A stretch of 64,000 bases of DNA from positions 248,001 through 312,000 of the forward strand of contig JAIMAU010000003.1 of the NCBI GenBank assembly GCA_023511795.1, given 5' to 3'. The notes below the pieces were generated by a model. That model saw only the letters and a list, made by a program, of their open reading frames with translations, did not search any database and had not been told where the DNA came from. Of this stretch, positions 48,138 through 63,809 are shown piece by piece. The stretch's first letter is position 1. Each line of letters begins with the position of its first letter. The position numbers and the translations under genes are program-made. The DNA is from Armatimonadota bacterium (GTDB taxonomy: Bacteria > Armatimonadota > UBA5829 > DTJY01).

Positions 48138-49562
48138 ATGTTTGCAAAAGTACTTACAGACGACCAAATAAAACGAATACATGACGTTTCGCTTATTATC
48201 CTTGAGCGGGTCGGAATCCATTTACCCCATGATGAAATGCTTCGGCGCTTCGCAGACTCAGGTGCGTCGGTTGACTTCTGCAACAAACGCGTCTACATCC
48301 CTAACGAACTTGTTGCAAAATCGCTGGAACAGGCGGGGAAGAAGTTTGCCATCTACGGACGCGACGTTTCCAAAGAAGCGGCGTTTGGTGTTGGAAAACG
48401 GAATTACAATTCTATCGCCGGCGAAGCATTGTGGGTTGACAATCTCGGCGAAAGCCGACGGCCTGCAACGCTAGCCGATGTTGGAACCGCCTCGCGCTTC
48501 GCCGATGCCCTGGATAATATCAACATTGTAGGCGCAATGGCAGACCCCCGAGAGATTCCGTCCGAATATCGGTGCGTGGAAGTCATGGCAACCATGCTTC
48601 GAAACACAACCAAGCCGATTCACTTCTGGTTCCATGATCGGCTTTCCGCAAAATATATTATTGAGATGATGATTGCCCTGCGCGGCGATGAAAAAAAGGC
48701 GGCAGAATTCCCTGTCTGCTATCCTTTTCTTGAGCCAATCAGCCCTCTGCGCTTCCCATTCAACGGGGTGGACATTCTGTTCGAGACCGCAAGGCTCAAC
48801 CTTCCCGTGCCAGTCGGGCCGATGGCTCAAATGGGTCTTTCGGCACCGGCGACAGTAGCGGGGACATTGGCGCAGGAAAATGCTGAGATACTGGCAGGCA
48901 TCTGCATAACACAACTTATTAAGCCCGGAACGCCAGTATGCTATGGAGGCATTTGTCATGCATTCGACATGAGAACAACACAGCTTATTTTCTCGGGTCC
49001 GGAACAAGCAATTTTCGGGGTGGCAATGACACAAATAGGGAAGCACTACGGCTTGCCGGTATACATTAACGTCGGCCTAACAGATTCGAAACGCGCAGAT
49101 GCCCAAGCAGGGCTAGAGGTTGGAATCACATTGGCTTTGGGAGCCGCCGCAGGAGCGGATATTTTTGGCCACATGGGAATCTCAGGGGTGGACCAGGCAT
49201 CATCGCTGGACATTCTTGTCCTGCAAGACGAAATTATCTCTTATGTAGAAAGCATAATGCGAGAAATTGATTTTTCGGACGATGCGCTTGGGCTGAAAGA
49301 AATAGAAGAAGTTGGACCCGGGGGAATATTTATAGACCGCCCACACACTGTGGAACATTTCCGACGCGAGCTTTGGTTCCCTCGCTTGCTTGACCGAAAT
49401 TACTACCAAGCATGGCTCGAAAGTGGTGCACTCAGCACGGAAGAAAAGTGCCGCCATCTAAAAGAGGAAATACTCAGCACCCACACGCCTGAGCCACTGC
49501 CACCCAAGCTTGAGCAAATATTTGAGGAGATACTGCTGGAAGCCAGAAGTCTGAAAGCCTGA
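48138..49562 (+). CDS. MttB-family methyltransferase without pyrrolysine
   Basis: A 474-residue member of the trimethylamine methyltransferase (MttB/MtgB) superfamily, which moves methyl groups from quaternary amines to a corrinoid protein. Recognisable: DDQIKRIHDVSLIILERVGIHLPH, GNP-like RRPATLADVGTASRFADAL, GGICHAFDMRTTQLIFSGPEQ and GVDQASSLDILVLQDEIIS. The frame runs unbroken without an in-frame TAG, so it is a non-pyrrolysine form. No corrinoid protein or other methyl-carrier gene is adjacent. It follows GH4 by 41 bases. Substrate unknown, perhaps a betaine or methylated sugar. Confidence 0.87.
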   Translation: MFAKVLTDDQIKRIHDVSLIILERVGIHLPHDEMLRRFADSGASVDFCNKRVYIPNELVAKSLEQAGKKFAIYGRDVSKEAAFGVGKRNYNSIAGEALWVDNLGESRRPATLADVGTASRFADALDNINIVGAMADPREIPSEYRCVEVMATMLRNTTKPIHFWFHDRLSAKYIIEMMIALRGDEKKAAEFPVCYPFLEPISPLRFPFNGVDILFETARLNLPVPVGPMAQMGLSAPATVAGTLAQENAEILAGICITQLIKPGTPVCYGGICHAFDMRTTQLIFSGPEQAIFGVAMTQIGKHYGLPVYINVGLTDSKRADAQAGLEVGITLALGAAAGADIFGHMGISGVDQASSLDILVLQDEIISYVESIMREIDFSDDALGLKEIEEVGPGGIFIDRPHTVEHFRRELWFPRLLDRNYYQAWLESGALSTEEKCRHLKEEILSTHTPEPLPPKLEQIFEEILLEARSLKA

Positions 49563-53258: not shown

Positions 53259-54266
53259 TTAACTCTCCGGAGCTGGGGCACAAGATTCGCGCTCTTTCAA
53301 GTAGCATGGAAGGATATTTTCCATTCGGAATTGGTCCGCGTTCCCTTGGATTTGAGCTACGACCAGCTTAGCCGCAAGGACGCCAATCTCATAAAGCGGC
53401 TGGTGAACGCTGGTGAGCTGAGGAATAGTCAATTCGGCGTAAGTATCGTCAAAGCCGATAAACGAGATATCCTCCGGTATTCTGAGGCCAGCCTGACGTG
53501 CGGCTTGCATTGCTCCAATTGCCATTGCGTCGTTTGCGGCAAAAACAGCCGTTGGTCTGGACTTCATTTCGAGAAACTTCTGCATAGCCTGGAAGCCAGA
53601 TGCCCTAGTGTAGTCGCCCTCGGCTTTTAAATCAGGGTCTACTGGAATGCCTGCATCCCCAAGAGCATCTGCATAGCCCTTCACCCTCATTCGCGAGATT
53701 AGCGTGTGCATTGGCCCAGTTATCATAGCAATGCGCCTGTGTCCCAGCTTGATGAGATATTCGACGGCACCTCGGGCGCCTTTGAGATTGTCGGGCTCAA
53801 CATAATAGAAACCGGTGGTCTCCATTCTTCTTTCGATAATCGCAAGAGGCACCCCGCGTTCTCGAAGAAAAGTTATGTGCTCTGGCAGTATTGGCGACGA
53901 CATTACTATACCATCGGCTCGTCGTTCGAGAAGGATATCTATATATGCCCGCTCCTTCTCTATGCTGTCGTACGAGTTGCAGAGGATGACATTATATCCA
54001 AACTTTTGAGCTTGGTCCTCTACTGCCCTAGCAAGAGCGGGGCTTACTGGTCCTGCAATACTGGGAACGATGTGGCCAAGGAGTCCTGTCCGCCGCTTCT
54101 TTAAGCCGCGCGCAAGGGCATTATAGCGATATCCAAGATCGGCAATGGCACGCTCGACGCGAATTCTCGTTTCCTCCGAAACGGAATCCGCACCGTTGAG
54201 CACGCGAGATACGGTGGCGGTAGACACCCCAGCGAACTTTGCAACATCCTTGATAGTTGGCAGCAC
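53259..54266 (-). CDS. LacI family transcriptional regulator
   Basis: A 335-residue repressor. The N-terminal HTH IKDVAKFAGVSTATVSRVLNG (residues 5-25) and hinge YRYNALARGLKKRRTG are classic. A periplasmic-binding-protein-like sugar domain follows, with LGHIVPSIAGPVSPALARA, FAANDAMAIGAMQAARQAGLRIPEDISFIGFDD and LTSVHQPLYEIGVLAA. Start is GTG with GAGGTGATC upstream. It is divergent from the DegT operon (54511 onwards), so it probably controls that operon and itself in response to a sugar. The 17-nt palindromes at 54280 and 54465 are candidate sites. Confidence 0.93.
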   Translation of the reverse strand: MLPTIKDVAKFAGVSTATVSRVLNGADSVSEETRIRVERAIADLGYRYNALARGLKKRRTGLLGHIVPSIAGPVSPALARAVEDQAQKFGYNVILCNSYDSIEKERAYIDILLERRADGIVMSSPILPEHITFLRERGVPLAIIERRMETTGFYYVEPDNLKGARGAVEYLIKLGHRRIAMITGPMHTLISRMRVKGYADALGDAGIPVDPDLKAEGDYTRASGFQAMQKFLEMKSRPTAVFAANDAMAIGAMQAARQAGLRIPEDISFIGFDDTYAELTIPQLTSVHQPLYEIGVLAAKLVVAQIQGNADQFRMENILPCYLKERESCAPAPES

Positions 54267-54510: not shown

Positions 54511-55743
54511 ATGGGAAAGCTTGCTATAAATGGTGGAGCCAAAGTTCGGACTAAAGGGTGGCCGAGCTGGCCAGTTTTTGATGAAAGTGATGTCAACGCA
54601 GTTGCGGAGGTAGTCCGAAGTGGACACTGGGGCTGTCTCACTGGAAGCAAGGTCGCCGAGTTTGAGAAGAAATTTGCGGCGTTCCACGATGCCAAATATG
54701 GGGTATGCGTTACCAACGGCACGGCGGCGCTGGAGGTTGCACTCAGAGCAGTTGGAGTTAAGCCAGGGGACGAAGTTATCGTGCCGCCGTACACGTTCAT
54801 TGCCTCCGCAAGCGCGGCGCTTCAAGTAAACGCGATACCCGTATTTGCTGACATTGACCCTGACACCTACAATCTCGACCCCAATAAGATTGAACCGGCG
54901 ATAACAGAAAAAACAAAGGCTATAATTGCGGTTCACATTGGCGGCGGGCCAGCAGACATGGACGGCATAATGGCGGTCGCGAGAAAACATGGCCTTAAGG
55001 TTGTCGAGGACGCCGCCCAGGCTCATGGCGCGGCGTGGAAAGGGCGGAGAGTCGGAGCCATTGGCGACGCTGGAACGTTCAGCTTCCAAGCAAGCAAGAA
55101 TCTGACGGCAGGTGAAGGCGGCATAGTAATTACAAATGACCCCGTGGTGTACTCTGCGGCATGGTCGCTTCACAACTGTGGACGCGTGCCGGAAGGGAAG
55201 TGGTATGAGCATCGCATCCTAGGCTGGAACATGCGCATGACGGAGTTTCAGGGGGCAATCCTACTTTCGCAAATGGAGCGGCTCGAAAAGCAGATGAAAA
55301 TCCGCGAGGAAAACGCTCTCTATCTCGACTCAGAGCTATCAAAGATTGAGGGCATTCGACCGCTAAAACGAAACCAAAGGGTTACGGCTCACGCTTATCA
55401 TCTCTATATTTTCCGCTATGATTCCGCAGGCTTCGGAGGCGTTCCGCGGGCGAAGTTTTTGGAGGCACTAAACGCCGAAGGAATACCTTGCAGTGCGGGC
55501 TACGTGCCGCTCTACAAAGAGCAACTTTTCTATGTCGAGCCAAACGGCTGTCCCGTCGGATGCGCTTTCTACGGGCGGGAGATGGACTATTCGAAGGTCT
55601 GCTGTCCAATTGCCGAGAATGCCTGCGCCAACGAAGCCGTATGGCTCACCCAAAACATGCTCCTTGGAACGAAGCAAGACATGGACGATATAGTAGGCGC
55701 AATACGGAAAATCAAAGACAACATCGGGGAGTTGATTAGTTGA
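54511..55743 (+). CDS. DegT/DnrJ/EryC1/StrS family PLP aminotransferase
   Basis: A 410-residue sugar aminotransferase-type protein. GHWGCLTGSKVAEFEKKFAAFHDAKYGVCVTNGTAAL (residues 48-83) forms the cofactor-phosphate region. VVEDAAQAHGAAWKG follows, with the PLP-stacking aspartate. The lysine for the Schiff base is in FSFQASKNLTAGEGG near 195. These enzymes usually build amino sugars on nucleotide carriers, so a place at the head of a catabolic operon is unexpected. AAAGGAG before ATG. The stop overlaps the start of the next gene by four bases (TTGA). Confidence 0.9.
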   Translation: MGKLAINGGAKVRTKGWPSWPVFDESDVNAVAEVVRSGHWGCLTGSKVAEFEKKFAAFHDAKYGVCVTNGTAALEVALRAVGVKPGDEVIVPPYTFIASASAALQVNAIPVFADIDPDTYNLDPNKIEPAITEKTKAIIAVHIGGGPADMDGIMAVARKHGLKVVEDAAQAHGAAWKGRRVGAIGDAGTFSFQASKNLTAGEGGIVITNDPVVYSAAWSLHNCGRVPEGKWYEHRILGWNMRMTEFQGAILLSQMERLEKQMKIREENALYLDSELSKIEGIRPLKRNQRVTAHAYHLYIFRYDSAGFGGVPRAKFLEALNAEGIPCSAGYVPLYKEQLFYVEPNGCPVGCAFYGREMDYSKVCCPIAENACANEAVWLTQNMLLGTKQDMDDIVGAIRKIKDNIGELIS

Positions 55744-56834
55744 AAGGCTGTCCGATTAAGACAATGAAACTGTGCCCTTTAGCGGCAGTCATTCTAATCA
55801 TTATGTGCGCACCGAAGGCAAAGGCATCCGCCGATAATTCGCATGCAAAGCCGGTTTATGCGCAGGTATCGAGCGTCGAGGCGCTTTTAAAATCCGTTGC
55901 TGAGGCGAACGAAAAAGGAGGTACAATCATACTCGAGCCAGGCACTTATACAATCACCGAGCCGATTGTAATTAGGAGAAGCGACGTGTGCTTAGCCGGC
56001 AGCGGCTGGAATACCGTAATCAAGCGAAAAGGCGATGGCGATGCCCTAGTATTCCAAGGCAGCCTTTGGAACTGCTCAGTGCGCAATCTTGCAATCACAG
56101 GAGATTCAAATGCAAAGACTGGGTCGGGCATAGTATTTAAGGATGGCGAATGGTCTGGAATCGCTTACATTGACTACTGCCGCATCATGAACTTTGCCGA
56201 AAGCGGAATTCGCTTTGAGGGAAATCCCAAAGCTCCATTTTCCTCGAATACGGTGAGCAACTGCTGGCTGGTAGGCAACCTAGGCCATCAGCTTTACAGC
56301 CGCTACAATAATGATTTTTACATCACCGGCAATCAGTTTGGAATGCAACCTAATAGGGTTCCTCGAACAGGTGCATATCTCGACCATTCATCCGCAGGAA
56401 CCTACACAAAAAATTATCACTGGGGCAATCAAGTTGCCTTGAGGATAATAGGGAGCCATTTTAATAGGATTGAAAACAACCGGCTGGAGCAGAGTTTGGA
56501 AAGCGGCATCGTAATTGGCGATCCGAAAAGCGATGAGTGGAGCCAGCTAAACATTTTTCTTGGAAATACCATACATACAAATTCCGAGACCAATTCGGGG
56601 AAATTTTCGGCGGTCGTCGCATACAAGGCGGTTGATACAACGTTCTGCTCAAATCAAATATTCAGCTGGGACAGCAATTCAACCAAAATGAAATCCGGCT
56701 TGGTTCTCGGCCAGGGGTGCAGAAATTGGATTGTTAAGGACAACATAATCCGCCACTGTGTGGAAACTCCAATTGTGTATGATAGAAAAGTTGGCCACAT
56801 TGTGAAAGATAATATCCTTGACACGCAGAAGTGA
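55740..56834 (+). CDS. secreted right-handed beta-helix protein
   Basis: A 364-residue exported protein. TTG start at 55740 with GGGGAG upstream; the signal peptide is MKLCPLAAVILIIMCAPKAKA after a short lead, and an ATG at 55764 is an alternative. The body is a parallel beta-helix (GGTIILEPGTYTITEPIVIRRSDVCLAGSGWNTVIKR; NRIENNRLEQSLESGIVIGD; NWIVKDNIIRHCVETPIVYD), as in pectate-lyase and carrageenase-like enzymes. No catalytic residues can be named. Translationally coupled to the aminotransferase gene by the TTGA overlap. Confidence 0.78.
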   Translation: MKGCPIKTMKLCPLAAVILIIMCAPKAKASADNSHAKPVYAQVSSVEALLKSVAEANEKGGTIILEPGTYTITEPIVIRRSDVCLAGSGWNTVIKRKGDGDALVFQGSLWNCSVRNLAITGDSNAKTGSGIVFKDGEWSGIAYIDYCRIMNFAESGIRFEGNPKAPFSSNTVSNCWLVGNLGHQLYSRYNNDFYITGNQFGMQPNRVPRTGAYLDHSSAGTYTKNYHWGNQVALRIIGSHFNRIENNRLEQSLESGIVIGDPKSDEWSQLNIFLGNTIHTNSETNSGKFSAVVAYKAVDTTFCSNQIFSWDSNSTKMKSGLVLGQGCRNWIVKDNIIRHCVETPIVYDRKVGHIVKDNILDTQK

Positions 56835-56934: not shown

Positions 56935-57696
56935 ATGGTTAATCAACAACCGGATATAAACTTTTTCGACTGCAATGCGCAAATCGGAAGGTACAGCGTC
57001 CGCCATCCCGAAGCATTAACTACTGCGGATGAACTGACGAAAGAAATGGAATACATCGGCATCTCGGAGGCACTCGTTTACCACTCCATGGCAAAAGAAT
57101 ATGCGCCATCCGTCGGAAATGAGATGCTGATTCAAGAGATAAAAGGGAAGCCGCTCCACCCCTGCTGGGTCGTGATGCCGCACCACACCGGCGAGATGCC
57201 TCCCCCGGACGAGCTCCTGGCGCAAATGAGAAAAAAAGGCGTCCGCGCCTTGCGTGCGTTCCCTGTGCTCCACCAATTCCGCCTATCGAAGTGGTGTTCC
57301 GGCGAGCTCCTAGAAATGATTGAGGCAAATAATATTCCCTTATTTCTCGACATGGACCAAACGAGTTGGGAGGACGTCGCCCAAATACTCAGGGATTATC
57401 CGAAGATTAACCTTATTCTTCTTAGGACTTCCTACCGAATTGACCGATATATTTATCCACTGTTTGAGAAATACGAAGGCTTGCGCATTGAAACCGCAAC
57501 ATACCAGGTGAACTTCGGGATTGAGGAGGTGTGCAGGCGGTTTGGAGCCTACCGCCTTCTCTTCGGCACCGGTCTTCCATTTACGGAAGCAGGTCCTTCA
57601 ATTGCCCAAATCGCTTATGCCGACATCTCCGACGAAGAGAAAGCAATGATTGCAGGAAAGAATCTCTGCAACTTATTGCAGAATGTAGGGTATTAG
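56935..57696 (+). CDS. amidohydrolase-like protein lacking metal ligands
   Basis: A 253-residue barrel protein clearly related to the amidohydrolase at 59769, but without its metal ligands. The usual DAHCHMG is FFDCNAQIG, with Asn and Gln for both histidines. VKIHPD has become LRAFPV, LLSHTS is FLDMDQ, LGHSG is LLRTS, and FGTDIPF is FGTGLPF. The barrel itself (LRAFPVLHQFRLSK; INLILLRTSYRIDRYIYP) is intact. It is most likely a non-catalytic partner or binding protein rather than an enzyme. GGAGGAGG before ATG. Same operon as agarase and importer. Confidence 0.8.
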   Translation: MVNQQPDINFFDCNAQIGRYSVRHPEALTTADELTKEMEYIGISEALVYHSMAKEYAPSVGNEMLIQEIKGKPLHPCWVVMPHHTGEMPPPDELLAQMRKKGVRALRAFPVLHQFRLSKWCSGELLEMIEANNIPLFLDMDQTSWEDVAQILRDYPKINLILLRTSYRIDRYIYPLFEKYEGLRIETATYQVNFGIEEVCRRFGAYRLLFGTGLPFTEAGPSIAQIAYADISDEEKAMIAGKNLCNLLQNVGY

Positions 57697-57741: not shown

Positions 57742-59778
57742 ATGCTGATGACCATGAGCATAATAGCTCTGCTAGTCCTTCAGGGAAGTGCAGCCAGCGC
57801 CGAGAAAATAATTATTCCGCTGGATGGAAAATCCATTCCGGAAAACGCAGTATTAAACAGCGTCAAAGCGGAGGCTGAAATTAAGGACGGCAGACCCGCA
57901 CTTAGGGTTAAATTCGGCAAGGTAGAGTGGCCAAATATCTTTTTCAAGCCCAAGGAAGGCACCTGGGACTGGTCAGCCTATTCAGGTATTGCCGTGGACG
58001 TCTTCAATCCACAAAAGCAAGCGATTCAGTTCAGCGTTCGCGTTGACAATGAAGGCGCTGACGGGTGGAACCACTGCAATACCGGGTACGCGACCGCTCT
58101 GCCGGGGAAGTGGACTACGCTTTCGATGGCATTTCGCTCAAACAAGCCCGAGCGATTCTGGGGGATGCGAGGAGTGCCAGCTACTGGTCCGCCGGCATCG
58201 GGTACTCCCATCGACCTCTCAAAGATTGTCGGATTCCAGGTCTTCCTTTCACATCCCAATCAAGAGTATACTCTCTTGATTGCAAATATGCGCCTAATTG
58301 CAGATACAATTTCTCTTCCCTTTGTGGACAAGTTTGGCCAATACAAGCACGAAACCTGGCCAGGAAAGCTAAAAAGCGAACGAGAGCTCGCCGAACGCCG
58401 TGAGATGGAGGAGAAGTCGCTGAGAGAATCCAAGTGGCAAGACCGCGACAGATTCGGCGGCTGGGCAAATGGCCCAAAGCAAGAAGCGACCGGCTGGTTT
58501 AGAACCCAAAAAGTGGGAGGCAAATGGTGGCTGGTTGACCCAGATGGCAATTTATTCTTCTCCATAGGCGTGGACTGCGTGCGAACTGGCGACAGCACTT
58601 TCACCGAAAAGCGCGAAGAATGGTTCGAGTGGCTCCCTGGAGAAGATGAGAAGTTCAAGCCAGCGGTTGGATACTCCAGCGGAGCACACTCTATGGCAGA
58701 CGTAATTGGCGGCAAGGGGAAAACCGTCAACTTCTACCGTGCTAACCTAATCCGCAAATATGGAAGCGAATGGGAACGGAAGTTTCGAGAAACAGCTTGC
58801 GCCCGATTGAAGGCATGGGGATTCAACACCATTGGCAATTGGTCGCAGGAAGACGTCATGACAAGCGGCTGTCTGCCATACGTTGCCTGCGCCCATGTGA
58901 CAGGGAAGTTCCGACGAATTGAAGGCGGCGGCGGGTATTGGGCCAAGATGCCGGATGTGTTCGACGCAGAGTATGCTGCTGCGGCTGAAAACTCAATCGC
59001 ACCTGTAGCGAAGAAGCATACGGCAGATAGGTTCTGCATAGGCTTTTTCGTTGACAATGAGCTGGCATGGGATGCCATTGAGAAAGGAACGCTTGCCAGC
59101 CCGCCAGACCAACCCTGCCGAGTTGAGATGATTAAAAGGCTCAAAGAAAAGTACAAAACTTTGGAAGCTTTAAATGCTGCCTGGGAAACAAAAGCCGCCA
59201 GCTGGGATGCGCTAAGAGTCCCTGATTCGCCAAACGCCGCTTGTCAAAATGATTTAAACGAGTGGGTGTATGCATTCTCGCACCGCTACTTTGAAATAAT
59301 CAAGGGTGTGCTCAAGAAATATGCGCCGCATCATCTCTATCTAGGCTGTCGGTTCGCATGGAGTCATCCGCAGGCAGTCCGAGCCGCCGCAGATGTTGCG
59401 GATGTAGTCAGCTTCAACATCTACACCCGCGGAATAAACTGCGCAGATTGGACTGGCGAGAACGACCTTGGGAAGCCTATTCTCATCGGCGAGTTCCACT
59501 TTGGCGCATTGGACCGAGGAATGTTCCACCAAGGGCTCGTGCCGACAGCGAATCAGCGCGAGAGGGCTGAAAGCTTCGTAAAATATGTGCGAAGCGTCAT
59601 CGAATGCCCAGCGTTCGTCGGCTGTCATTGGTTTCAGTATGTTGATGAGCCGCTTACAGGCAGAGTCTACGACGGAGAGAACTACAATATAGGTCTGGTA
59701 GACGTAACCGACACGCCCTACCCTGAGATGATTGCGGCGGCAAAAAAGGTGAATGGAGAAATATACAAATGGAGATGA
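57742..59778 (+). CDS. secreted GH50 beta-agarase-like glycosidase
   Basis: A 678-residue exported enzyme (signal MLMTMSIIALLVLQGSAASA). An N-terminal carbohydrate-binding-like beta sandwich (residues 25-195) leads to a GH50-type barrel. The barrel has GNLFFSIGVDCVRTGDSTF, WGFNTIGNWSQEDV, and the putative acid/base Glu in GFFVDNELAW near 440. The nucleophile Glu is in ILIGEFHFGALDRGMFHQGLVP near 583, followed by GCHWFQYVDEPLTGRVYDGENYNIG, typical of beta-agarases. It would cleave beta-linked galactans; agar itself is not proven. GAGAGG before ATG. Overlaps the next gene by ten bases. Confidence 0.85.
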   Translation: MLMTMSIIALLVLQGSAASAEKIIIPLDGKSIPENAVLNSVKAEAEIKDGRPALRVKFGKVEWPNIFFKPKEGTWDWSAYSGIAVDVFNPQKQAIQFSVRVDNEGADGWNHCNTGYATALPGKWTTLSMAFRSNKPERFWGMRGVPATGPPASGTPIDLSKIVGFQVFLSHPNQEYTLLIANMRLIADTISLPFVDKFGQYKHETWPGKLKSERELAERREMEEKSLRESKWQDRDRFGGWANGPKQEATGWFRTQKVGGKWWLVDPDGNLFFSIGVDCVRTGDSTFTEKREEWFEWLPGEDEKFKPAVGYSSGAHSMADVIGGKGKTVNFYRANLIRKYGSEWERKFRETACARLKAWGFNTIGNWSQEDVMTSGCLPYVACAHVTGKFRRIEGGGGYWAKMPDVFDAEYAAAAENSIAPVAKKHTADRFCIGFFVDNELAWDAIEKGTLASPPDQPCRVEMIKRLKEKYKTLEALNAAWETKAASWDALRVPDSPNAACQNDLNEWVYAFSHRYFEIIKGVLKKYAPHHLYLGCRFAWSHPQAVRAAADVADVVSFNIYTRGINCADWTGENDLGKPILIGEFHFGALDRGMFHQGLVPTANQRERAESFVKYVRSVIECPAFVGCHWFQYVDEPLTGRVYDGENYNIGLVDVTDTPYPEMIAAAKKVNGEIYKWR

Positions 59779-60584
59779 ACAAAGAAACTAAGGGCGGCCT
59801 GATGGATAAAGTACGCCGCGGCATACCTCTAAACGACCTGCTAGTAATAGACGCTCACTGCCATATGGGGCGCTGGCACAACTTCAATATCCCAAAAGGC
59901 GATGCCGCCGGAATGATTGAAATGATGGACCGTTTAGGAATTAGGTCGTGCATCGTCGCTCATCATTCGGCAATTGGTCCCGACTTCCGATATGGGAATG
60001 ATGAAGTGCTTAGTGCGATGGCTAAGTTTCCAAAACGAATTTACGGCTATGCCACCGTGAATCCAAACTACCCCGAAGCCGAGTTAGTCGCCGAGCTGGA
60101 AAGATGCATCTCAGCAGGTATGGTCGGCGTTAAGATTCACCCAGACGTACACCAGTGCAATGTTGACGATGAGAAATACCGCCCAGTGTGGGAGTGGGCA
60201 AATGAGCGCCGACTTCCACTCCTTTCCCATACCTCGACTGGCGGGCGAAACCCTGTTAAAACGTTTGAGAAGCTTGCGGAAATGTATCCAAATGTCAGCA
60301 TTATCCTAGGGCATTCGGGTTTCGGCTCAGAGGGTGCAAACCAGTCAATTCAAGCGGCACTCAAATACCCAAACATCAACCTCGAACTTACAGGGTCGGT
60401 TATAGTGTACGGCACGCTCGAGCGAATGGTAAAGCAAATCGGCGCTGAACGAGTGCTTTTCGGCACCGACATTCCCTTTCTCGACGCCAGGCCGCAAATC
60501 GGGCGTGTTGCTTTTGCGAAAATCTCGGAGGAAGACAAGCAAAAGATACTAGGATTAAACGCCGCTAGAATCTTCGGAATCTGA
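59769..60584 (+). CDS. amidohydrolase family metal-dependent hydrolase
   Basis: A 271-residue TIM-barrel hydrolase with an intact metal centre: IDAHCHMGRW (H30, H32), GVKIHPDVHQC, LLSHTSTGG, ILGHSGFG and FGTDIPFLDARPQIG. The family includes lactonases and decarboxylases; the substrate here is likely a sugar-derived lactone or acid. Starts at 59769, 59775 (an ATGA overlap with the agarase gene) and 59802 are possible; I keep the first, with GGAG ten bases upstream. It is a paralogue of the ligand-free protein at 56935. Confidence 0.85.
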   Translation: MEMNKETKGGLMDKVRRGIPLNDLLVIDAHCHMGRWHNFNIPKGDAAGMIEMMDRLGIRSCIVAHHSAIGPDFRYGNDEVLSAMAKFPKRIYGYATVNPNYPEAELVAELERCISAGMVGVKIHPDVHQCNVDDEKYRPVWEWANERRLPLLSHTSTGGRNPVKTFEKLAEMYPNVSIILGHSGFGSEGANQSIQAALKYPNINLELTGSVIVYGTLERMVKQIGAERVLFGTDIPFLDARPQIGRVAFAKISEEDKQKILGLNAARIFGI

Positions 60585-60589
60585 GTGGA

Positions 60590-61888
60590 ATGAAAAGGAC
60601 GTTCACATATCTTGCAATCATAATCATTGCAATTCCCGCGGTTCACTGGGTGATGAAGCCCAAGGAACGGGTTGAGTACGAGAATGGCAAAGTAGTAATA
60701 GAATGGTACAACTACGCAACTCCCGAATTCCTTGAGCTGTATGAGAAATACCTAATTCCCGAGTTCGAGCGCACCCACCCAAATATCAAGATTCGCCTCA
60801 ACTCAAGCCTCGGCGATACGGGATATGATGCAAAACTGCTTACGCTAATTGCTGGGAAGATTCCGCCTGACATAATTCACGTTACTCAGCAAAACTTTCC
60901 ATTCTATGCGGTAAAAGACATTCTGCTGGACCTCAACCCTTTAATTAAAAAGGACCCGACATTTGATTTAAATGACTACTTCGAGCGAGTATTAGACGGC
61001 ATGCGCTTCAAAGGCAAGCTTCTCGGCTTGCCGAGCGACTTTTCCACCATCGCCCTCGTATACAACAAGGATATGTTCGACAAATACGGCGTCTCCTATC
61101 CCGACGAGACCTGGGATTGGAATAAGTTCCTGTGGGCCGCAAAGAAGCTGACTCGCGATACCAACGGCGACGGCACAATCGACCAATTTGGCTTCGTGAA
61201 CATCAATTCCTACAACCGGTGGCCAGCCTGGGTCTGGATGGCAGGCGGCGACATTCTCACTACCGACATGAAAAAATGTCTAATGGACGATCCCAAGTCA
61301 ATTAAAGGCATGGAGTTCTATGTAAACCTTTCAATCAAAGAGCACGTCGCCCCAACGTCTACGCAAACCCTTGGCCAAAGCTTCGAAGAGATGTTCATTG
61401 CCGAACGTGCGGCGATGATTGCCGACAGCCGATATGCCTACAAAATATTCAGCAAAGGGGTGCCTTTCAGGTGGGATATAGCCCATATGCCAAAGGGACC
61501 AGCATGCCGCGCAACAACGTTCATATGGGGCGGCAACTGCATTCTCAAGACGACAAAACATCCAAAAGAAGCATGGGAGTTCCTGAAGTTTCTATCGGGC
61601 TATGAGGGAGCAGTCCTAAATGTAAAGGCAGGAAACGCATTCCCAGCCTTTAAAAAGGTAGCAATGTCCGATATGGTATTAAAGTCGCCAATCTCGCCGC
61701 CGAACGACAAGATTTTCCTCGATGCGATTGAATATGGGCGGCAGGCTCCTTTCCCACCGCAGTTCACCGAGTTCAACCAAGCGATGACAAAATTCGAAGC
61801 GGCATTCCTCGGCTTCGAACCAGTTGAAAAGGTATGCAAGGAGTTCGCCGCAGAGGTAAATGCCGCTGTCAGCGGTGAAGTATGGTAG
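60590..61888 (+). CDS. ABC transporter sugar-binding protein
   Basis: A 432-residue family 1 extracellular solute-binding protein. N-terminal hydrophobic segment (residues 5-22) is followed by WYNYATPEFLELYEKYLIPEFERTHPNIKIRLNSS, IPPDIIHVTQQNFPFYAVKD, and LGLPSDFSTIALVYNKDMFDKYGV, classic for oligosaccharide binders. No lipobox cysteine is visible, so it may be anchored by its uncleaved N-terminus. It starts five bases after the amidohydrolase stop and precedes the two permeases. Delivers oligosaccharides released by the agarase and other enzymes (inference). Confidence 0.9.
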   Translation: MKRTFTYLAIIIIAIPAVHWVMKPKERVEYENGKVVIEWYNYATPEFLELYEKYLIPEFERTHPNIKIRLNSSLGDTGYDAKLLTLIAGKIPPDIIHVTQQNFPFYAVKDILLDLNPLIKKDPTFDLNDYFERVLDGMRFKGKLLGLPSDFSTIALVYNKDMFDKYGVSYPDETWDWNKFLWAAKKLTRDTNGDGTIDQFGFVNINSYNRWPAWVWMAGGDILTTDMKKCLMDDPKSIKGMEFYVNLSIKEHVAPTSTQTLGQSFEEMFIAERAAMIADSRYAYKIFSKGVPFRWDIAHMPKGPACRATTFIWGGNCILKTTKHPKEAWEFLKFLSGYEGAVLNVKAGNAFPAFKKVAMSDMVLKSPISPPNDKIFLDAIEYGRQAPFPPQFTEFNQAMTKFEAAFLGFEPVEKVCKEFAAEVNAAVSGEVW

Positions 61889-61969
61889 AAGGGCTATCAC
61901 TGCGAAAAATTAAGACAGCAAGCAAAATGCTTGCAATTCTTTAGTTCAACTATCTATTATGGTCAAATC

Positions 61970-62908
61970 ATGAAGCAACGCATGACTAAGAGGCAAAGAA
62001 TAGAGGCTTTTCAAGGCTTTTTGTTTATCCTTCCATGGGTGATTGGCTTTCTTGTATTCGCCCTGGGCCCAGTGATTGCATCGCTTGCGCTCAGCTTCTG
62101 CAAATGGGATATTCTTACGCCGCCTAAGTTTGTCGGCTTTGCGAACTATGCGAAGATGGCTAGCGACCCACTGATTCGAAAGTCGCTGTTTAACACAATC
62201 TACTATGCGGCATTTGCAATTCCACTAGGCATGTGCGGCGCACTCGGCACGGCACTTCTGCTTAACCAAAAGCTAAAAGGCATGAGGCTCTTCCGCACAC
62301 TTTTCTACGTGCCGTCGGTCACCGCGGGCGTCGCAACCTACCTATTGTGGAGCTGGATTTTCAACCCAGAGCTTGGCTTATTGAATCGTGCGCTGAGGCA
62401 TCAGGTATGGTGGCTTGACTTTTCAAATGGGATAAACTGGAAATTGGTGCCGCTGGTGGCGAATCCCCCAAAGTGGCTGGCAGACCCCCACTGGGCAATG
62501 CCAGCGCTCATAATAATGTCGCTTTGGGGCGTTGGGGGCGGAATGCTCATCTATCTAGCAGGACTGCAAGGGATTCCTGAGGAACTTTATGAAGCGGCAA
62601 CGATTGATGGAGCAAACACCGTCCAAAAGTTCCGCTATGTTACCATCCCAATGCTCAGCCCGACCATCTTTTTCAACCTAATAATGAGCATTATTGGCGC
62701 ATTCCAGGTCTTTGGAGCCGCATTTATAATGACTGGCGGCGGCCCGATGAATGCAACTCTGTTCTATGTGCTCTATCTCTTCCAAAACGCGTTCATGTAC
62801 TTCCGAATGGGATATGCTTCGGCGATGGCGTGGCTCTTGTTTATTATCATACTTACGCTTACGCTAATCCAATTCCGTCTTTCCAGAAGATGGGTGCATT
62901 ATCAGTAG
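61970..62908 (+). CDS. ABC sugar transporter permease (MalF/UgpA-like)
   Basis: An inner-membrane permease of about 312 residues with six membrane helices. The EAA loop is EELYEAATIDGANTVQKFRYVTIPMLSP, for contact with the ATPase. GFANYAKMASDPLIRKSLFNTIYYAAFAIPLG is the conserved start of the permease domain. The ATG at 61970 is chosen over the TTG at 61931, although neither has a good ribosome site. It pairs with the permease 28 bases downstream. Confidence 0.9.
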   Translation: MKQRMTKRQRIEAFQGFLFILPWVIGFLVFALGPVIASLALSFCKWDILTPPKFVGFANYAKMASDPLIRKSLFNTIYYAAFAIPLGMCGALGTALLLNQKLKGMRLFRTLFYVPSVTAGVATYLLWSWIFNPELGLLNRALRHQVWWLDFSNGINWKLVPLVANPPKWLADPHWAMPALIIMSLWGVGGGMLIYLAGLQGIPEELYEAATIDGANTVQKFRYVTIPMLSPTIFFNLIMSIIGAFQVFGAAFIMTGGGPMNATLFYVLYLFQNAFMYFRMGYASAMAWLLFIIILTLTLIQFRLSRRWVHYQ

Positions 62909-62936
62909 CAGAAAGGCAGAGTGGCGAGAACAACCA

Positions 62937-63809
62937 ATGGCTGTAGCTTCAAATAAACGAATTGGCAACCCGAAAGTTCGCGCATGGAGAAATGCGAAGA
63001 TTGCGCTAACTTACGCAGTCTTAATTGGGCTGTCGTGCGTCTTTCTCATACCTTTCTTCTGGATGCTTTCAACCTCGCTTACCGAAGCTTCAAAGGTCAT
63101 CGTAAAAAATCGGTCGTGGATACCCAACCCTGTCGTCTGGAAAAACTACAAGGACGCACTGACGGTTCTGCCATTCCACTTATTCCTAAAAAATACGCTC
63201 ATCATCACCATCTCCTGCATAATCGGGCAAGTGCTAAGCGCATCCCTTGTTGCATTCGGCTTCTCGCGCATGAGGTTTCCAGGGCGCGATGCGATTTTTA
63301 TCCTTGTGCTTTCAACGATGATGCTTCCAGCTCAGGTTACGCAGATACCAACATTTATTTTATTTACGTATCTGCGGTGGATTGACACACTTAAGCCGCT
63401 CATTGTACCGGCATTCTTCGGCGGCGGCGCATTCTTTATCTTCCTGCTCAGGCAATTTTTCCTAACTATCCCAACAGAGCTGGAGGACGCCGCAAAAATT
63501 GACGGATGCAGTCCTTTCGGAGTCTACTGGAACGTAGCAATTCCACTCTCCAAGCCAGCGCTCGCAACAGTAGCGGTATTCAGCTTCATGAGCCACTGGA
63601 ACGACTTCATGGGGCCGCTGATTTACATCCAATCTATGGAGAATAAGACGCTCGCGCTCGGACTGGCATCATTCAAAACCCTTCATGGGACTGAGTACCA
63701 CCTGATGATGGCCGCTTCGGTAGCGGTCCTACTGCCGGTGCTGATAATATTCTTCTCGGCGCAGAAGTACTTCGTGAGGGGCATTGTGATGTCGGGGTTG
63801 AAGGGATAG
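62937..63809 (+). CDS. ABC sugar transporter permease (MalG/UgpE-like)
   Basis: A 290-residue permease with six membrane helices. The opening FLIPFFWMLSTSLTEASKVI and the EAA loop PTELEDAAKIDGCSPFGVYWNVAIPLSKPAL are typical of the MalG group. It forms a heterodimer with the preceding permease. No ATPase gene follows; the next gene is unrelated, so a shared MsmX/UgpC-like ATPase must be encoded elsewhere. Last gene of the operon. Confidence 0.92.
   Translation: MAVASNKRIGNPKVRAWRNAKIALTYAVLIGLSCVFLIPFFWMLSTSLTEASKVIVKNRSWIPNPVVWKNYKDALTVLPFHLFLKNTLIITISCIIGQVLSASLVAFGFSRMRFPGRDAIFILVLSTMMLPAQVTQIPTFILFTYLRWIDTLKPLIVPAFFGGGAFFIFLLRQFFLTIPTELEDAAKIDGCSPFGVYWNVAIPLSKPALATVAVFSFMSHWNDFMGPLIYIQSMENKTLALGLASFKTLHGTEYHLMMAASVAVLLPVLIIFFSAQKYFVRGIVMSGLKG

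Follow-up and report, generated by a model that had tools for sequence, protein, structure and literature searches.

The window analysed here, a stretch of 64,000 nucleotides from an Armatimonadota MAG, encodes two proteins of the Amidohydro_2 family (PF04909), one with a complete metal site and one from which every metal ligand is gone, and it raises the question of what the second protein does beside the first. The two proteins, called P and A in what follows, are encoded at:

56935..57696, plus strand: P, ligand-free Amidohydro_2 paralogue (pseudoenzyme), 253 aa (Pfam, alignment, AlphaFold2)
59769..60584, plus strand: A, intact Amidohydro_2 partner, 271 aa, with H30, H32, K122, H154, H182 and D234 (Pfam, alignment)

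The open reading frame of P was found exactly where an earlier note on this DNA had given it. P and A are homologous, with 23% identity over about 250 aa (BLASTP, E 5e-17), and both score above the curated Amidohydro_2 cut-off of 26.4 bits (P 38.4 bits, 1.6e-9; A 109.5 bits, 3.4e-31). The metal-site columns were read from an alignment with 57 P-type and 51 A-type domains, numbered by the residues of A. At the six positions A has the H, H, K, H, H and D of a metal-dependent amidohydrolase, whereas P has N14, Q16, R107, D139, R164 and G213. The family alignment thus bears out the claim of the earlier note that all five ligand segments of P are changed (NxQ, Lys/His, His, His and FGTD). The replaced positions, together with two residues specific to P, are:

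56974..56982, plus strand: N14-x-Q16, replacing the strand-1 HxH motif (alignment)
57193..57195, plus strand: E87, P-specific, in 56/57 P homologues (alignment)
57253..57255, plus strand: R107 in place of the strand-4 Lys; Arg in 48/57 (alignment)
57349..57351, plus strand: D139 in place of the strand-5 His; Asp or Glu in 43/57 (alignment)
57424..57426, plus strand: R164 in place of the strand-6 His; variable among P (alignment)
57445..57447, plus strand: R171, P-specific and near-invariant (56/57), at the N-terminus of helix 6 (alignment, AlphaFold2)
57571..57573, plus strand: G213 in place of the strand-8 Asp, giving FGTG and not FGTD (alignment)

The barrel itself remains, as the same note had held. 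With the 57-row alignment as input, AlphaFold2 models P as a complete barrel (pLDDT 95.5, pTM 0.93), and a Foldseek search with this model retrieves PF04909 structures at E of about 1e-9 to 1e-6, as for a (beta/alpha)8 barrel. The best solved match is 3irs (BB4693, TM 0.72), followed by 3cjp and the PF04909 decarboxylases.

P homologues are common in the phylum, and 62 Armatimonadota loci yielded the 57 P-type and 51 A-type domains of the survey. Among the P homologues 41 keep none of the six ligands, 14 keep one and two keep two; none of the 57 keeps more. The A-type partners have the complete HHKHHD set in 49 of 51 cases. Ligands retained in close homologues were what the earlier note had named as evidence against a pseudoenzyme, and none of this kind came to light, the closest homologues (97%, 72% and 70% identity) being all P-type. 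The replacing residues are themselves conserved, N14 in 47 of the 57 and positions 107 and 139 as listed above, and D12, G18, N62, P82, E87, R171, G204 and P215 hardly vary and are specific to P. The conserved polar residues of P include H50, E87, H113 and D139, and several such residues are found at strand ends; the complete set N14/H50/E87/R107/H113/D-E139 is present in only 29 of the 57 proteins. The loops on the active-site face of P are no more conserved than the rest of the protein (p 0.3), and a specially conserved face as a sign of a retained pocket was therefore dropped.

The dN/dS values against a genome of the same genus are 0.066 (P), 0.050 (A) and 0.061 (the DegT gene of the cluster), and that of P indicates purifying selection. 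This value and the deep conservation rule out a pseudogene or a sequencing error. The P-type close homologues, the low dN/dS and the full-barrel model together argue that the loss of ligands in P is the result of neither chance nor decay.

At the fetched loci the usual arrangement is P directly 5' of A on one strand, typically with a few bases between them, and 13 pairs have an overlap of exactly 4 bp. In many genomes, and in several separate clades of Armatimonadota, the two are fused into proteins of about 550 aa with P at the N-terminus. Adjacency breaks down in few cases: where a contig ends, at L084, whose P has no A visible nearby, and at loci with an inserted gene. The insert is glycoside-hydrolase-like in the window and in its sister genome. 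At L057 and L063, from two related genomes, it is an Eco57I-type restriction-modification methylase gene lying exactly between the pair (L057:2195-4441, L063:8516-10825). The distance matrices of P and A are correlated (r 0.775 for 50 pairs, against a permutation maximum of 0.26), a correlation that partly reflects shared species history.

The inserted gene in the window and the other members of the cluster are:

53259..54266, minus strand: LacI-type regulator, divergent from the cluster (Pfam)
54511..55743, plus strand: DegT/StrS aminotransferase (Pfam; nearest solved relatives given below)
55740..56834, plus strand: parallel beta-helix protein (NosD/Beta_helix), a genus-specific neighbour (Pfam)
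57742..59778, plus strand: glycoside-hydrolase-like gene, 678 aa, between P and A (weak agarase-CBM and GH42 similarity)
60590..63809, plus strand: apparent sugar ABC transporter genes, directly 3' of A (function read from ORF translations)
60590-61888, plus strand: solute-binding protein of this transporter (translation)
61931-62908 and 62937-63809, plus strand: its two permeases (translation)

The glycoside-hydrolase-like gene was seen only in the window's genus, and its 3' end runs 10 bp into the start of A. The loci L052 and L053, from two further genera of the window's family, lack this gene and have 3 bp between P and A, which makes it probable that their separation in the window arose secondarily. 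The gene at L052 that corresponds to the window's solute-binding gene is assigned to Pfam SBP_bac_1, and the nearest solved relatives of the DegT protein are AHBA synthase and L-glutamine:2-deoxy-scyllo-inosose aminotransferase. The LacI, DegT, beta-helix and glycoside-hydrolase-like genes and the apparent sugar ABC transporter suggest that the cluster degrades or otherwise uses a sugar or cyclitol derivative, and the substrate in the window is probably, on this weak support, a compound derived from a sugar or cyclitol. Neighbours at other loci vary and include glycoside hydrolases, sugar transporters, QueC, FtsW and SurE, from which it appears that the P-A pair probably serves several related substrates. 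Elsewhere in the window (48138-49562) there is an MttB-family (trimethylamine methyltransferase-like) gene, which scores 364 bits against a curated NCBIfam cut-off of 525.

Several loci have further genes in their vicinity. At L092:3399-9414, on contig C3 of the window's own genome, a DegT gene and a fused P-A (502 aa) come before genes for a heavy-metal P-type ATPase and a ZIP transporter, all on one strand. At L075:9660-11348 and L079:9426-11171 a single frame just 3' of P-A combines a nitroreductase domain, a response-regulator receiver and a histidine kinase. A triple tandem is found at L128:2542-4905, with one ligand-free member and then two intact, similar members.

As a control, the same ligand columns were read in other members matching the A profile from the 28 genomes of the window's class. 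All 16 solitary Amidohydro_2 members have HHKHHD (L093, L147-L156, L158-L160, L164, L166), and in these genomes ligand-free members occur only beside or fused to another member, cases at contig ends aside. The ligand-free arrangements are in P-A order, split with A before P (L129, L130, L144-L146), or fused, and some tandem pairs consist of two intact or nearly intact members (L131, L132).

Three hits from a protein search of a plasmid collection extend the pairs beyond Armatimonadota, to Bacillota, Actinomycetota and one archaeon. In Subdoligranulum (L119) the pair lies by glucosamine-isomerase and Amidohydro_1 family genes and an apparent sugar ABC transporter, as read from the sequence; in Nonomuraea (L121) a DegT-like gene comes after it; and the archaeon Halomontanus has a fused P-A directly before a fusion of the opposite order, A-P. 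In this second fusion (Halomontanus rarus, L120:8682-10370) the N-terminal domain is intact and the C-terminal domain ligand-free. The archaeal fusions are annotated as "amidohydrolase family protein", yet half of each would not be expected to bind metal, and more generally P proteins pass the PF04909 cut-off despite their missing ligands, which is a warning for annotation.

On a tree of 190 domains the ligand state changes only twice, once for the P clade and once for the partners in pairs in which both members are ligand-poor; the tree was built quickly, without the six ligand columns, and many of its inner branches have weak support. The split between P and A was recovered in a smaller tree too. 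The archaeal and actinobacterial rows form long branches and are the most divergent, so that their exact places are unsure. The topology of the 190-domain tree agrees with the P clade having arisen once.

The near-obligate adjacency, the fusion in both orders, the one apparent origin and the intact solitary relatives point to P as a subunit of the enzyme of A. We consider it probable that P is the obligate non-catalytic subunit of a heteromeric P-A enzyme that arose by an ancient duplication, with A as the catalytic subunit. After this duplication A would have kept the metal centre and the chemistry, and P, with its barrel kept and its metal site lost, would be needed to assemble, stabilise or complete A, in analogy to other pseudoenzyme partners. 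We infer that P and A bind each other where they are made as separate proteins. P shows the features of a pseudoenzyme with an active paralogue as its partner, namely lost catalytic residues with fold and selection retained; the exceptions to the active partner are L084 and the sub-lineage in which both members are ligand-poor. The earlier note had proposed a ligand-free partner for the catalytic paralogue, and near-obligate adjacency, both-order fusions and intact solitary members give this core idea strong support. The association with DegT that it had pointed out is real, and is seen near only about 15 of some 60 loci, about a quarter, so the pair is not specifically a feature of a DegT pathway; a DegT pathway partner was accordingly rejected as the general role of P.

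The natural P-A fusion L078 (545 aa) was modelled with AlphaFold2 at pLDDT 93.0 and pTM 0.91, values at which both barrels and their mutual arrangement are confidently predicted. How a ligand-free subunit could serve an intact one is suggested, by analogy, by ACMSD, a PF04909 enzyme in which Arg239 of the adjacent subunit is essential (PMC11650718), a role that the title of PDB entry 4ifk covers likewise. R171 is near-invariant in P and lies close to the position from which ACMSD uses its Arg239. The A family has no conserved Arg at this place, where helix 6 starts, and such a residue could therefore come from P. That R171 acts as an ACMSD-like residue in trans is speculative; in the HMMER alignment it is R168 (38/57), and not R171, that falls on the matching Arg of a related structure, which makes the idea an uncertain one and a lead only. 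A scaffold or activating role of P is equally possible, on the model of the inactive dihydroorotase that Pseudomonas ATCase requires or of the trypanosomatid prozymes, both described below.

A competing explanation, which we consider unlikely, is that P is a separate enzyme, metal-free or with another metal site (N14, H50, E87, R107, H113, D139), that acts one step before or after A, fusion and overlap then reflecting a two-step pathway. P does have conserved polar residues of its own, several at strand ends, and adjacent pathway enzymes fuse too. The superfamily also offers a case of metal-free catalysis in LigI (2-pyrone-4,6-dicarboxylate lactonase), an amidohydrolase-superfamily barrel that works without metal and whose structures 4d8l and 4di8 are among the fold matches of P. 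However, the catalytic strand-8 Asp and the HxH residues, which LigI retains, are lost in P and in nearly all of its homologues, the full polar set is confined to about half of the P proteins, and paralogues of similar size fused either way round are more typical of a heteromer. It is less probable still that P is a sensor or regulator which binds the substrate of A but forms no lasting complex with A: the retained fold and the sugar-uptake genes at several loci would suit such a role, but it would leave the both-order fusions unexplained, and a Pfam search of P found no DNA-binding or signalling domain. That P is a decaying duplicate heading for loss, as the disappearance of every catalytic ligand might suggest, has next to no probability in view of an old clade spread across bacteria and an archaeon, its purifying selection, its full-length confident fold and its invariant residues.

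Tandem pairs with most or all ligands missing from both members were found at L091:8129-9624, which is the pair of the window's own genome (C1:53128-54590), and at L094-L096, L133-L140, L157 and L161-L163; they are conserved in several families of the class. In the window's genus the two members of such a pair have dN/dS of 0.11 and 0.07, again indicating purifying selection. At C1:53128-54590 the pair is preceded by a SurE gene and followed by a WbsX/GH99-like gene. A further-reaching reading is that P-A pairs are composite enzymes, with the live subunit's active site completed in trans by the dead one, and that the pair of the doubly dead Armatimonadota lineage is a conserved metal-free heteromer with a new role; we put this forward tentatively, as the two parts together seem rather doubtful.

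With regard to known systems, P shares its Pfam family and fold with ACMSD and with the gamma-resorcylate and 5-carboxyvanillate decarboxylases. ACMSD is a dimer of one zinc enzyme (PMC11650718), as opposed to the live and dead paralogues of P-A. The top fold match and second-best profile match of P, BB4693 of Bordetella (PDB 3irs, 3k4w), is an uncharacterised protein whose metal-site segments also look ligand-poor (FGTA for FGTD). A close parallel in kind is the inactive dihydroorotase homologue required for ATCase activity in P. aeruginosa (PMC7053772): PyrC'/pDHO and the fungal CAD-like pseudo-DHO are, like P, ligand-less barrels of the amidohydrolase superfamily with an obligate partner, separate or fused (PMC7053772). 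The partner of pDHO, however, is a different enzyme, ATCase, and pDHO belongs to the dihydroorotase branch, whereas the partner of P is an intact PF04909 paralogue. As a pair of dead and live paralogues P-A may be likened to AdoMetDC-prozyme and deoxyhypusine synthase of trypanosomatids, in which a dead paralogue activates the active enzyme (PMC5201418, PMC3663545), but those pairs are of unrelated families, eukaryotic and encoded by separate genes, and for P-A activation is a possible role. A literature search for dead/live pairs within PF04909 found none, so that such pairs, known as a kind, are new for this family as far as that search shows. The pairs described previously are, as far as found, single cases. 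Here one dead clade, apparently of one origin, extends over Armatimonadota, Bacillota, Actinomycetota and a haloarchaeon, and occurs as neighbouring genes, as fusions in both orders and in doubly dead pairs. With so many arrangements across phyla the successive steps in the evolution of a pseudoenzyme can be traced, and the natural fusions open the proposed P-A complex to a direct test.
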